From assembly GCA_022828125.1 (NCBI GenBank), contig JAJEJD010000020.1, positions 1-64,000 on the forward strand: a stretch of DNA of 64,000 bases. The letters run 5' to 3'. Positions 4,896-56,012 of the stretch are shown here, piece after piece. Origin of the DNA: a bacterium (lineage in GTDB: Bacteria; UBA8248). The position numbers and the translations under genes were made by a program. The notes beneath the pieces are model-generated. The model made no database searches and had not been told where the DNA came from. It saw only the letters and a program-made list of their open reading frames with translations. Every line of letters starts with the position of its first letter. Positions within the stretch are counted from its first letter, which is position 1.

Positions 4896-5732
4896 ATGCC
4901 GAGCGACAACCCGAAAGGCTATGCGAACCCCGACTTGCTCTGGTCGGCAGCACTTCTCAAAGAGCGCATGGACGACCCGAATTTAAGAATCATCGACACG
5001 CGCCCCGGCGAGCGCTACACGATGGGCCACATCCCCGGCGCGCGGCACTTCGACGTCTACGGCGTGAACAGCGACGACTCGGACGAGGCCCCCTTGAGGA
5101 ATTTCTTCTCCATGTGGGCGTTCCTGCTGGGAAACCGCGGGGTGTCGTTCGAGAACACCATCGTCTTCTACGACGATTTCGTCGGCAACACGAGCGTGCG
5201 CGGCTTCTGGATGCTGGAGCTTTTCGGCCACAAGGACGTCCACGTGCTCGACGGCGGCTACGGCGCCTGGGAGCGGGCGGGCTATGAGACGACGCGCGAC
5301 GCCGAGGTACCCAAGGCCGCCGCATTCAAGATGGCGTTCGAGCCGGATCGCCTCGCCACGCGCGAGGACGTGCTGGCAGCCATCGAGGATGACAACCACA
5401 TGCTGCTCGACACCCGCTCGGCAGAAGAATGGGAGGGGCGCAGCATGCGCGCCAGGCGGAGCGGCATCATCCCCGGCGCGGTCTGGCAGGAATGGCTCCA
5501 GCACCTGACGCCTGAGGGCGAGATGAAACCGGCGGACGAGCTTCGCGCGCAGTTCGAAGCTATCGGGGTCACGCCCGAGAAAGAAGTGACCGCCTACTGA
5601 CAGACGGGCTACCGTGCGGCGCACGGTTACTTCGCCCTGCGGCTCCTGAATTACCCCAGAGTGAGGAACTACATGAGCTCCTGGAAGGAATGGGGCAACC
5701 GCGACGATACGCCCATCGTCCAGGCGCAATAG
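4896..5732 (+). CDS. Selenocysteine-containing two-domain rhodanese (sulfurtransferase), Sec at residue 235
   Basis: Read through the in-frame TGA at 5598-5600, this is a complete 278-aa tandem-rhodanese protein of the thiosulfate/3-mercaptopyruvate sulfurtransferase type. The N-terminal domain (residues 1-130) carries IIDTRPGERYTMGHIPGARH and has no catalytic Cys, as is usual for the inactive domain. The C-terminal domain has LLDTRSAEEWEG, GIIPGAVWQEW, then TAY-U-QTGYRAAHGYF. The TGA falls exactly on the catalytic Cys of the C-x-x-G-x-R active-site loop. The 43 residues after it (ending YMSSWKEWGNRDDTPIVQAQ, TAG at 5730-5732) match the standard rhodanese C-terminus (GSWxEWGNRDDxP). Such conservation past a stop would not survive in a dead gene. 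A SECIS-like hairpin follows at once. Sec would carry the persulfide-like selenenylsulfide. The start is ATG 4896 behind AGGAGG; the gene follows an SDR and precedes an ABC importer. Standard gene callers would stop it at 234 aa. Confidence 0.93.
5598..5640 (+). promoter_or_regulatory. UGA Sec codon and bacterial SECIS-like hairpin in the rhodanese gene
   Basis: The TGA occupies 5598-5600. ACCGTGC (5611-5617), loop GGC (5618-5620) and GCACGGT (5621-5627) form a perfect 7-bp stem. The loop starts 17 nt after the TGA and its first two bases are G. A lower helix can form from GGC 5607-5609 with GCC 5634-5636 and CAG 5601-5603 with CTG 5637-5639. Known bacterial SECIS elements have a small loop with G in the first two positions at roughly this distance, and bind SelB. 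The fit is by eye; no folding energy was computed. Confidence 0.85.
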
Positions 5733-51942: not shown

Positions 51943-52563
51943 CTAACCCGACACCTGCGCGACTTCCTCCCATTCCTTCCAGCCGATGATGTCATCGGGC
52001 GGCTCCACCGGGTTGTGGAGGCCGTCCTGCAGGCGGTTCCAGGCGTTGAACAGGCAGGTGAACAGGGTGAGTTCCACGATGTCCTTTTCGCTGAAAAATT
52101 GTTTAAGCGGCGCGAAGCAGGCGTCGTCTGCGGCGGCCGTGTTCCGCGTGAGGGCCGTCGCCCAGCGGATCACCGCCTTTTCGCGTTCATCGAAGAGGTC
52201 GCTCCCCTCCCATCCATCGACTATCAGGGAGATATGTTCGTCGTTCAATCCGGCAGCTTGACCAAGCTTGACGTTGTGGTTCGTTCATATCTCGCAGTCG
52301 TTGATGAGCGAGGGCGTGAGGATCGCCAGCTGCATCAGGCGCATTCTGGACGAATCCGTCCGCCACTGGCTCCGCAGGGCCACCGTCAGGCTCATGATGT
52401 GGCGCAAGGCTTCCGGCGAATGGGCCAGGGCGCGGTAGAAGCTGGGCACCGTGCCCCACCTTTCCCTCGATTGTTCAAAGAGCGGTTCGTGATCGCCAGC
52501 GGCGTCATCGGGTACCGGCGTGATTCTCGACATCTCGGTCTCCTTGTGCGTCGGAATTCGCAA
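51943..52563 (-). CDS. Selenocysteine-containing AhpD/carboxymuconolactone decarboxylase-family protein, Sec at residue 93
   Basis: Read through the in-frame TGA at 52287-52285, this gene is a complete 206-aa protein of the peroxidase-related AhpD/CMD group. The N-terminal part has RITPVPDDAAGDHEPLFEQS and WGTVPSFYRALAHSPEALRH. The active site is LINDC-E-I-U-TNHNVKLGQA, in which Cys90 and the TGA (residue 93) form the CxxC motif and His96 follows, as in AhpD (CxxCxxH). The C-terminal part (DEREKAVIRWATALTRNTAA, FFSEKDIVELTLFTCLFNAW, NRLQDGLHNPVEPP) is fully preserved. Standard callers would split it into two pieces of 92 and about 101 aa. The protein probably reduces peroxides with a Cys-Sec pair. 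The start has a GAGA-type sequence upstream; a SECIS-like hairpin follows the TGA. Confidence 0.93.
52255..52287 (-). promoter_or_regulatory. UGA Sec codon and SECIS-like hairpin in the AhpD-family gene
   Basis: On the minus strand the TGA (52287-52285) is followed 16 nt later by AGCTT-GGTC-AAGCT (52268-52255): a 5-bp stem with a GGTC loop that begins 21 nt after the TGA. With G-C closing it can also be read as a 6-bp stem AGCTTG/CAAGCT with a GT loop. A GG in the first loop positions and this distance fit the bacterial SECIS pattern, and GGUC resembles the fdhF loop. No folding energy was computed. Confidence 0.8.
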
Positions 52564-52803: not shown

Positions 52804-52979
52804 ACGAGAGCCTGCGCCGCCCGGTTTCGGATTTTGGCCGTCATTCCGGCGTATGCGGGAACGACGATCAAAAGCGAAGAACCCTTTCTTCACCATTCCT
52901 CCACCCACCCCCCTTTGCGGTGCGCATCGCCCCCTGCTATAAGTCGCCTTGCCGCATCGTCCATGAAAGGAAACCCCTG

Positions 52980-53690
52980 ATGGAGCACCAGAAAATCCTC
53001 ATCATCTGCGCGCATCCCGACGACATCGAATTCCGCTGCGCAGGTTCGGTCGCCAAATGGGCCCGCGAGGGCAGGCATGTGGAGTACTGCCTCGCCACGA
53101 GCGGGGACAAGGGCGTGAACGGCCCCGAGTCGCGCCGCATGACCATCCAGGAGAAACAGGCGATCCGCGAGGGCGAGCAGCGCGCGGCGGCGGCGGTCGT
53201 CGGCGTCGAGCAAATCCATTTCCTGCGCCATACGGACGGGGAGGTGCGGAACACCACCGAACTCAGGCGCGACCTCGTGCACGTGATGAGGGAGTGCAAG
53301 CCGGACCTCGTGATTGCCGACGACCCGGCGAACGACGCCTTCGACAGCTTCTACGGGTACCACCGCGACCACCGCGCCGTCGCCAAGGCGGTCTTCGACG
53401 CGCTCTACCCGGCCGTGGGGAACGAGAACTATTTCCCGGAACTTCTGGCCGAGGGACTGGAGCCGCATCATCCCAAGGAAGTCTATTTCAAGACGATTCG
53501 CGGGGCGGACACCTGGGTGGACATCACCGACACGTTCGACCTGAAAATCGAGGCGCTCCACTGCCACAAGAGCCAGGTCGGCGCGGCGGAAGACCTCGTT
53601 ACCCACCTGCGCGACTGGGCGAAGCGCTCGGGCGAGGCGGGCGGCCTCGAATGCGCCGAGTCCTACCGGCGCATGGAGGTGCCGCAGTAG
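52980..53690 (+). CDS. PIG-L/LmbE-family deacetylase
   Basis: This 236-aa protein has the metal motif ILIICAHPDDIEFRCAGSVA (AHPDD, about residues 7-26), LATSGDKGVNGPE, VVGVEQIHFLRHTDGEV, and the third metal His in DSFYGYHRDHRAVAKAVFDA. KIEALHCHKSQVG is present near residue 188. Members are zinc-dependent N-deacetylases of glycans or sugar conjugates such as GlcNAc-inositol. ATG 52980 opens on the conserved start. The gene lies on the plus strand, divergent from the Sec-AhpD gene, with repeats between. Confidence 0.88.
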   Translation: MEHQKILIICAHPDDIEFRCAGSVAKWAREGRHVEYCLATSGDKGVNGPESRRMTIQEKQAIREGEQRAAAAVVGVEQIHFLRHTDGEVRNTTELRRDLVHVMRECKPDLVIADDPANDAFDSFYGYHRDHRAVAKAVFDALYPAVGNENYFPELLAEGLEPHHPKEVYFKTIRGADTWVDITDTFDLKIEALHCHKSQVGAAEDLVTHLRDWAKRSGEAGGLECAESYRRMEVPQ

Positions 53691-54143: not shown

Positions 54144-56012
54144 ATGCTCGGATATCAAGGAAGAATACTGCACATCGACTTAAGCAACCGCACGTCGCGC
54201 ATCGAGGAATTCGGCGAGGAGATGGCCCGCACGTTCATCGGCGGAAACGGCTTCTGCGCCAAAATCCTCTGGGATCACCTGAAACCCGGCACCGACGCGC
54301 TGTCGCCCGAAAACGTCATCGTCTTCGCCGTGGGGCCCTATACGGATTCCGCCGTCCCAAGCGCCAGCCGCGCGTGCGCCGCCGCCATCAGCCCGCTCAC
54401 CGGGCTTTTCTTCGACTCCACTTTCGGGGGCGCGTGGCCCATCACGCTCAAGCGCACCGGGCTCGACGCCGTCGTCCTCCACGGAAAGGCCGACTCCCTC
54501 GTCTATCTCATGCTCACCGAAGAGGGCGTGGCGTTCAAGGACGCGAGCCATCTGAAGGGGAAATGGATCCGCGAGACGTGCGATACGATTACGGAGACCG
54601 AGGGCGGCACCGACGTTCTGGCCATCGGCCCCGCGGGCGAGAACCAGGTGCGCTTCGCGGCCATGGCGCACACCTGGCGCAAGAGCCGCGACGGCATCAG
54701 CGGGCGCGGCGGCATGGCGGCCGTCCTGGGCAGCAAGAACGTCAAGGCCATCGCCGCCCGCGGCAAGGCGAAAACCGCCTGGGCGGACGCCAAGGCGCTC
54801 AGGACCTACGTGAACGAGACGGCCGAGGACGTGCGCACCGGCACGGCGGCGCTCCACAAATACGGCACCCCGATTCTCGTCAACATGATCAACAAGATGG
54901 GCGCCCTCGGCACGCGCAACCTCATGAGCGAGATATTTGAGAACTGCGAACCCATCAGCGGCGAATACATGCACGACAACTTCCTGGACAAGCACACCAC
55001 CTGCCTCAAATGCCCGGTGGCGTGCGGCAAGAACTACCTGATGAAGGGCGGTGAATTCGACGGCCTCGTGTGGAAACTCCCCGAGTACGAGACCATCTTC
55101 GCGCTGGGGACCATGCTGGGCATCGGCGACCCGGGCGTCATGCTGCAAGCCAACATGCTCTGTGACGAACTGGGCCTCGACACGATTTCGGCGGGCGTCA
55201 CGCTCTCGCTCGCCTTCGAGAGCATGGAGAAAGGACTGCTGAGCGAGGCGGAAGTCGGCGAACCGCTCAAGTGGGGCGATTCGGCCACCATGCTGAGGCT
55301 TTTAGAAGACATGACCCACCGGAAAGGGTTCGGCGACAGGCTGGCGGAAGGCGGCAAGCGCCTGGCCGCGGAAATCGGCGGCGACGCGCCCAATCTGCTC
55401 TACGCCTCGCGCGGCCTCGAGCTTCCGGCGCACAGCGCGCGCGCGCTCAAGGGCATGTCCATCGGCTACGCCACGGGCACGCGGGGCGGCAGCCACCACG
55501 ACACCCGCCCCACCCTGCAGTACGCCTCGGACCACGACAACACATCGACCGAGGGCAAGCCCGAGTTCGCCGTGCGCACGCAGAACTTCACCGCGCTGGG
55601 CGATTCCATCACCCAGTGCCGCTTCACGGCGGAGCGCGGGTACGGGGCGATGATCAACGAGAAATACGCGCACATGCTGAACCTCGTGACCGGGTGGGAC
55701 ACGACAGCGGATGAGCTGGAGGAAACCGGCGAGCGCATCTGCAACCTCGAGCGCGCCCTTCACGTGCGCGAAGGGGTGAGCCGCGCGGACGACATGCTGC
55801 CGTATAAAGTGATGCACGAGCCGATTCCCGACGGCCCGCACAAGGGGATGCACTGCCCGCCCGATGAACTGGAGGGCATGAAAAACGAGTTCTACGGCAT
55901 CCGGGGCTGGGATGAGAACGGATTCCCCACGGCGGCGACGCTCGGGAGGCTCAAGCTCGGCGACGTGGCCGAGGCGCTGGCCGCCAACGGCGGGGGCAAC
56001 GGCGCGGGCTGA
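54144..56012 (+). CDS. Aldehyde:ferredoxin oxidoreductase (tungsten-type AOR family)
   Basis: This 622-aa enzyme has the AOR N-terminus MLGYQGRILHIDLSNR, the N-terminal pterin-binding region FIGGNGFCAKIL and SRACAAAISPLTGLFFDSTF, and RKSRDGISGRGGMAAVLGSK. A [4Fe-4S] motif follows in TTCLKCPVACGKNYLMKGGE (about residues 288-307). The C-terminal domain has YATGTRGGSHHDTRPTLQYA. It oxidises aldehydes to acids (or the reverse) with ferredoxin in the cytoplasm, using a tungsto- or molybdo-bispterin. A length near 620 aa is usual. No moaD or ferredoxin gene is adjacent. Stop codon TGA at 56010-56012 is a real end, which shows that TGA still terminates in this genome. Confidence 0.9.
   Translation: MLGYQGRILHIDLSNRTSRIEEFGEEMARTFIGGNGFCAKILWDHLKPGTDALSPENVIVFAVGPYTDSAVPSASRACAAAISPLTGLFFDSTFGGAWPITLKRTGLDAVVLHGKADSLVYLMLTEEGVAFKDASHLKGKWIRETCDTITETEGGTDVLAIGPAGENQVRFAAMAHTWRKSRDGISGRGGMAAVLGSKNVKAIAARGKAKTAWADAKALRTYVNETAEDVRTGTAALHKYGTPILVNMINKMGALGTRNLMSEIFENCEPISGEYMHDNFLDKHTTCLKCPVACGKNYLMKGGEFDGLVWKLPEYETIFALGTMLGIGDPGVMLQANMLCDELGLDTISAGVTLSLAFESMEKGLLSEAEVGEPLKWGDSATMLRLLEDMTHRKGFGDRLAEGGKRLAAEIGGDAPNLLYASRGLELPAHSARALKGMSIGYATGTRGGSHHDTRPTLQYASDHDNTSTEGKPEFAVRTQNFTALGDSITQCRFTAERGYGAMINEKYAHMLNLVTGWDTTADELEETGERICNLERALHVREGVSRADDMLPYKVMHEPIPDGPHKGMHCPPDELEGMKNEFYGIRGWDENGFPTAATLGRLKLGDVAEALAANGGGNGAG

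Follow-up and report, generated by a model that had tools for sequence, protein, structure and literature searches.

The window analyzed here, a 64,000 nt stretch of bacterial DNA, harbors on its minus strand a gene (51943-52533) for a 196-residue protein of the AhpD/CMD fold, in which an in-frame TGA is predicted to be read as selenocysteine (Sec) at residue 83 and a TAG at 51945-51943 is the stop codon. This assignment is based on the read-through translation, an ATG shared by 11 orthologues and the fold. Sequence and comparison support it through the single frame, the catalytic placement of Sec, the presence of the Sec machinery, the constraint on a downstream hairpin and the fold; insertion of Sec in the cell is inferred, as are the chemistry, the substrate and the reductant. 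In the mechanism that we consider probable, SelB and Sec-tRNA would decode UGA83 with the aid of a hairpin located 17-30 nt downstream, the selenolate of Sec83 would attack a peroxide or another electrophile, C80 would then pair with Sec83 as a selenenylsulfide, and a cellular thiol system would reduce it. Peroxide would most likely be the substrate.

A TGA-containing AhpD-like gene and its homologues

Translation through the TGA at 52287-52285 yields one continuous AhpD/CMD-like protein, which is conserved on both sides and has the TGA at the second Cys of a CxxC motif, as proposed by a previous sequence-only reading of this DNA. Codon use is coding-like on both sides: among 196 sites in the window where an in-frame TGA is flanked on either side by 40 or more open codons, this site ranks second, and the first (43597) is read as a putative ordinary gene end, after which the next gene runs on in frame. 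Standard annotation would give two frames at this locus, in agreement with the earlier expectation of a split gene; automatic annotation would split its paralogues in two as well, losing the active site.

An ATG matching position 52533 is common to all 11 orthologues and is directly preceded by a purine-rich stretch, while the sequence upstream of the ATG diverges among orthologues. AAGGAG at 52540-52545 on the minus strand is the candidate ribosome binding site. The protein most likely starts at this ATG, not at the TTG at 52563, and is 196 residues long. The motif residues, previously numbered C90, U93 and H96 from the TTG, are therefore C80, U83 and H86. Searches of the whole window found no Rfam match at the gathering score and no tRNA gene.

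The orthologues, from the genome of the window and ten others (L056-L065), share 59-99% identity, and all 11 carry TGA at codon 83 (52285-52287, minus strand). Before the column was counted over all loci, 16 were excluded (L001-L008, whose contigs duplicate those of other loci, and eight overlapping or fragmentary loci). Homologues with neither Cys nor Sec at this position had been named beforehand as evidence against a selenoprotein; of the 39 loci with an alignment extending to the column, 38 have TGA, and Cys is present in the remaining one (L040, TGC) as well as in two relatives of solved structure, 2gmy and PA0269. The nine named genomes among the relatives are MAGs, seven of them labelled Nitrospinota or Nitrospinae. 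When 98 genomes were searched as relatives at E 1e-15, the 18 belonging to the phylum gave matches and the other 80 gave none; Cys forms outside the phylum were thus seen only in the solved structures. At E 1e-20, these 18 genomes gave 123 matches, 116 with one or more in-frame TGA codons and 7 with none; the position of the TGA in the column was checked within the 39-locus set. In five pairwise comparisons, dN/dS ranged from 0.06 to 0.29 upstream of the TGA and from 0.00 to 0.25 downstream, values that point to strong purifying selection after the TGA and similar selection in both halves.

Some paralogues depart from the motif. Two copies without TGA in one genome (G023) are of the SxxC form, with Ser first and Cys second, and have no His. 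One lies at L099 (G023:C104:2000-5000), where three paralogues adjoin each other and it stands beside CxxU copies; the other lies at L101 (G023:C49:16300-18500), next to a single CxxU copy. A paralogue in a different genome (L080, G025:C121) has the motif SDYU, in which Sec is kept and Ser replaces the first Cys, and would thus be without a resolving Cys.

The hairpin downstream of the TGA

A putative bacterial SECIS hairpin with a 5 bp stem is located at 52255-52268 on the minus strand, composed of AGCTT (52268-52264), a GGTC loop (52263-52260) and AAGCT (52259-52255). The sequence-only reading had noticed this hairpin and its GG-starting loop 21 nt from the TGA; both were found as claimed, and the hairpin is conserved with covariation. 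The published bSECIS geometry, with a stem of 4-16 bp, a loop of 3-9 nt, G in the first two loop places and a distance of 16-37 nt from the UGA, accommodates the focal hairpin (5 bp, GGUC, 21 nt). In contrast, the hairpin is weak when folded alone and therefore misses the published energy limit (-3.8 kcal/mol vs ≤ -7.5 kcal/mol); according to a review, some genes do not fit this bSECIS model. The best fold of 45 nt reaches -7.0 kcal/mol and is another structure, the mean pair probability of the hairpin being 0.11. Pair probability was below 0.5 in 11 of 37 sequences folded alone.

Comparison across homologues gave a different picture from the isolated fold. Among 29 distinct sequences drawn from the 37 TGA sequences (36 distinct), stem cells were paired in 97.9% of cases vs 83.2% in shuffles, both-side changes numbered 23 vs 6.5, and covariation was 0.548 vs 0.264; none of 500 shuffles scored as high on either of the latter two measures. 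When the partner strand was slid along, pairing fell to 18-54%. Two other measures did not stand out from the shuffles: three pairs showed changes on both sides, a count that 30 of 500 shuffles reached, and further pair types numbered 7 vs 7.7. The loop-closing pair is C-G in 25 of 37 sequences and T-A in the other 12, without exception, even though in 35 of the 37 the first base of the pair occupies the third position of a Leu codon.

The loop sequence GGTC is present in 36 of 37 sequences, and the codons in the hairpin run against the codon bias of five window genes: Gly is encoded by GGT in 36/37 hairpin sequences vs 6% in those genes, Arg by CGA in 14/25 vs 5%, and Ala by GCT in 24/33 vs 4%. 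We take the covariation and the use of rare codons as stronger evidence than the weak isolated fold. With its codon use against genome bias, the GGUC hairpin would be a clean example of RNA constraint within a coding region. A covariance model of the TGA and hairpin detected nine places in the same genome at E ≤1.6e-15, the next being at 0.009, and 1-13 matches per genome at E 0.001 in 18 of 18 genomes. As the coding signal for HN also enters the model, and some of the same sequences served to build it, these matches are not independent proof.

Decoding of the TGA

The check for sel genes suggested by the earlier reading, which had named their absence as a refuter, was positive: tRNA-Sec, selA, selB and selD all scored above their curated cut-offs in the genome of the window. 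tRNA-Sec and selB did so in all nine genomes searched; the search for selA and selD covered the genome of the window, where selA adjoins selB. The selD match (L032, G000:C30:4116-5078) contains one in-frame TGA, and SelD may therefore be a selenoprotein itself.

We considered whether TGA could have been reassigned in this lineage to an ordinary amino acid such as Trp, since TGA lies inside many frames of the CMD family. The stops read in five conserved genes of the window were TGA in two, TAG in two and TAA in one. TGA thus ends other genes, which rules out a reassigned code, and Trp at the TGA column is ruled out by Cys in the solved relatives and in L040. The confinement of TGA to a single catalytic column in 38 of 39 loci and the presence of the Sec machinery leave this explanation with next to no weight. 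It is just as hard to credit that a nonsense mutation or sequencing error broke an ordinary Cys gene, even though standard annotation would give two frames: the TGA is at the same codon in 11 of 11 genomes, which rules out a pseudogene or either kind of error, selection downstream of the TGA is strongly purifying, and the hairpin is conserved. The weakness of the focal hairpin folded alone would suit a regulated stop, with UGA yielding mainly an 82-residue product and being read through only when selenium is plentiful. However, the short product would have neither Sec83 nor any of the later helices of the fold, and selection is alike on both halves; we regard this as very unlikely.

Fold, active site and candidate substrates

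The AlphaFold2 model of the selenoprotein (pLDDT 88.5, pTM 0.83) is predicted with the all-helical AhpD core fold, and fold comparison aligned it with AhpD of D. radiodurans (6k40) at Z 19.1 over 175 residues. The best sequence match is Atu0492 (2gmy; E 8.9e-25 with the family profile, fold Z 17.5), and PA0269 (2o4d, 2ijc, 7xw1) has the same fold (Z 16.2); both proteins harbor CxxC in place of CxxU and thus Cys instead of the focal Sec. AhpD of Mycobacterium tuberculosis shares the CxxC redox motif and a related helical fold (Z 10.5), but is distant (5% identity), and its relay residues Glu118 and His137 are unmatched in the focal protein.

The protein scored below the cut-offs of the nearest family models. 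The score for the peroxidase-related enzyme model TIGR01926 was 68 bits over residues 6-177, below the cut-off of 81.8, and that for the Pfam CMD family PF02627 was 17.8 bits for the TTG-start form vs a gathering score of 23. PF02627 matched six of the eight other GGTC-type paralogues above the cut-off; the remaining two (L011 and L012) were not among the matches. Two AhpD-related models with (seleno)protein in their names, NF053654 (GroundWater_YciW) and NF041238 (AhpD_rel_CFYUT), match along the protein but far below their cut-offs (54.6 vs 310 bits and 20.7 vs 175 bits). We filed the protein as an AhpD-fold selenoprotein that is neither a TIGR01926 member nor a canonical relay AhpD.

The active-site motif C80-E-I-U83-T-N-H86-N87 is encoded at 52273-52296 on the minus strand. 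In the 33 rows of alignment A2, U83, H86 and N87 are invariant, so that His follows Sec at +3 and Asn at +4 in all rows, and C80 is present in 32. According to passages of PMC3141380, PA0269 has a CxxCxxxH motif (Cys48, Cys51, His55) and shares with M. tuberculosis AhpD a relay of Glu, Cys, Tyr/His, Cys and His at +4 from the second Cys; peroxidase activity in AhpD is attributed to the CxxC pair, and PA0269 itself is only a weak peroxidase. The sequence-only reading was right to place the TGA at the second Cys, but the CxxCxxH motif that it described is not the standard AhpD motif; its spacing is a feature of the clade. That reading had not noted the revised start codon, the nearer His, the loss of the relay Glu or the paralogue expansion. 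The canonical relay, in which Glu precedes the first Cys by 12 residues and His lies four positions beyond the second, is absent from the focal protein. Where PA0269 has Glu36 and His55 at +4, the focal protein has Gln68 and His at +3. Gln68 (52330-52332, minus strand) is shared by all 11 orthologues, and at this place the 33 rows of A2 have Glu in 18, Gln in 14 and Ala in 1. From general chemistry, the low pKa of a selenol could make the Glu-His relay dispensable.

AhpD-like selenoproteins have precedent, as the sequence-only reading had stated. CxxU forms were reported in 2005 from 27 sequences of the Sargasso Sea set (in passages of PMC1088965), the GOS study of 2008 counted 299 AhpD-like 1 and 70 AhpD-like 2 selenoproteins (in passages of PMC2398784), and a 2026 review lists one such selenoprotein under TIGR01926 (in passages of PMC13188914). 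These proteins, compared here by their descriptions, agree with the focal protein in having Sec at the second CxxC position, but at least 12 such frames occur in the single genome analyzed here. AhpD-like CxxU selenoproteins are already known, and the interesting part is the paralogue count together with the changed relay. Our literature search found nothing on selenoproteins of Nitrospinota or on an expansion of AhpD selenoproteins, some co-mentioning papers aside, and the text of the 2026 review (PMC13188914) has no word beginning with Nitrospin.

CMD-family frames in the genome of the window whose TGA lies in CxxU number at least 12. Nine belong to the GGTC type (L010-L017 and L049, the last with a GGCC loop), and the others are L041, L053 and L054, of which L053 is the weakest and short (~100 residues). 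One more match (C15:424038, L100; 25% identity, one TGA) was left out of the count because its TGA could not be placed in CxxU. L041 (G000:C22:352226-355453) is a longer frame with CDYU, whose halves look alike by eye, like two AhpD-like repeats. This bacterial group has an unusually large AhpD-like selenoprotein set, and the lineage could serve as a test bed for why selenium is committed to one redox fold; the genome with the CxxU frames also encodes a Cys relative for comparison.

A PIG-L deacetylase-like gene (PF02585) lies at 52920-53690 on the plus strand, divergent from the selenoprotein gene. Its nearest model is BshB1 (TIGR04001), at 103.6 bits vs a cut-off of 182.5. Beyond it, an aldehyde ferredoxin oxidoreductase gene (PF01314, PF02730) at 54144-56012 (plus strand) ends in TGA. 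The PIG-L gene is adjoining and divergent in 8/10 loci and the oxidoreductase gene lies beyond in 5/10, several of the ten loci ending too early to tell. This arrangement hints at a link with low-molecular-weight thiols but is no proof of one. A downstream short-chain dehydrogenase gene was rejected as an operon partner since it adjoins in only 3/10 loci, some of the ten ending too early to tell.

The same AhpD-fold selenoprotein might act on a substrate other than peroxide, either resembling a reductive dehalogenase such as Bmp8 or acting on thiol conjugates. The debrominase Bmp8 (6ohi) has the same fold (Z 17.2 over 170 residues), the relay differs from that of AhpD, the BshB1-like PIG-L gene adjoins in most loci, and at least 12 paralogues suggest several substrates. 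However, Bmp8 shares 18% identity, scores no higher than the peroxidase-related entries, and nothing here points to a brominated substrate; the PIG-L gene falls under the BshB1 cut-off, and neither fold nor neighbors fix the substrate. We therefore hold a non-peroxide substrate to be rather unlikely, and peroxide remains our preferred reading. More speculatively, the clade may possess AhpD-fold selenoenzymes in wide variety, the selenol taking over from the Glu-His relay by virtue of its low pKa and leaving the active site (Gln68, H86-N87) free to diversify over the at least 12 paralogues toward different electrophilic substrates, possibly organohalogens or thiol conjugates; we consider this wider scheme doubtful at present.

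Apart from the AhpD-like gene, the window contains a rhodanese/sulfurtransferase-like gene at about 4897-5732 on the plus strand (PF00581, E 3.7e-12), which is probably the first selenoprotein gene of the sequence-only reading and has an in-frame TGA at 5598-5600 within the active-site loop AYUQTGYRAAH.
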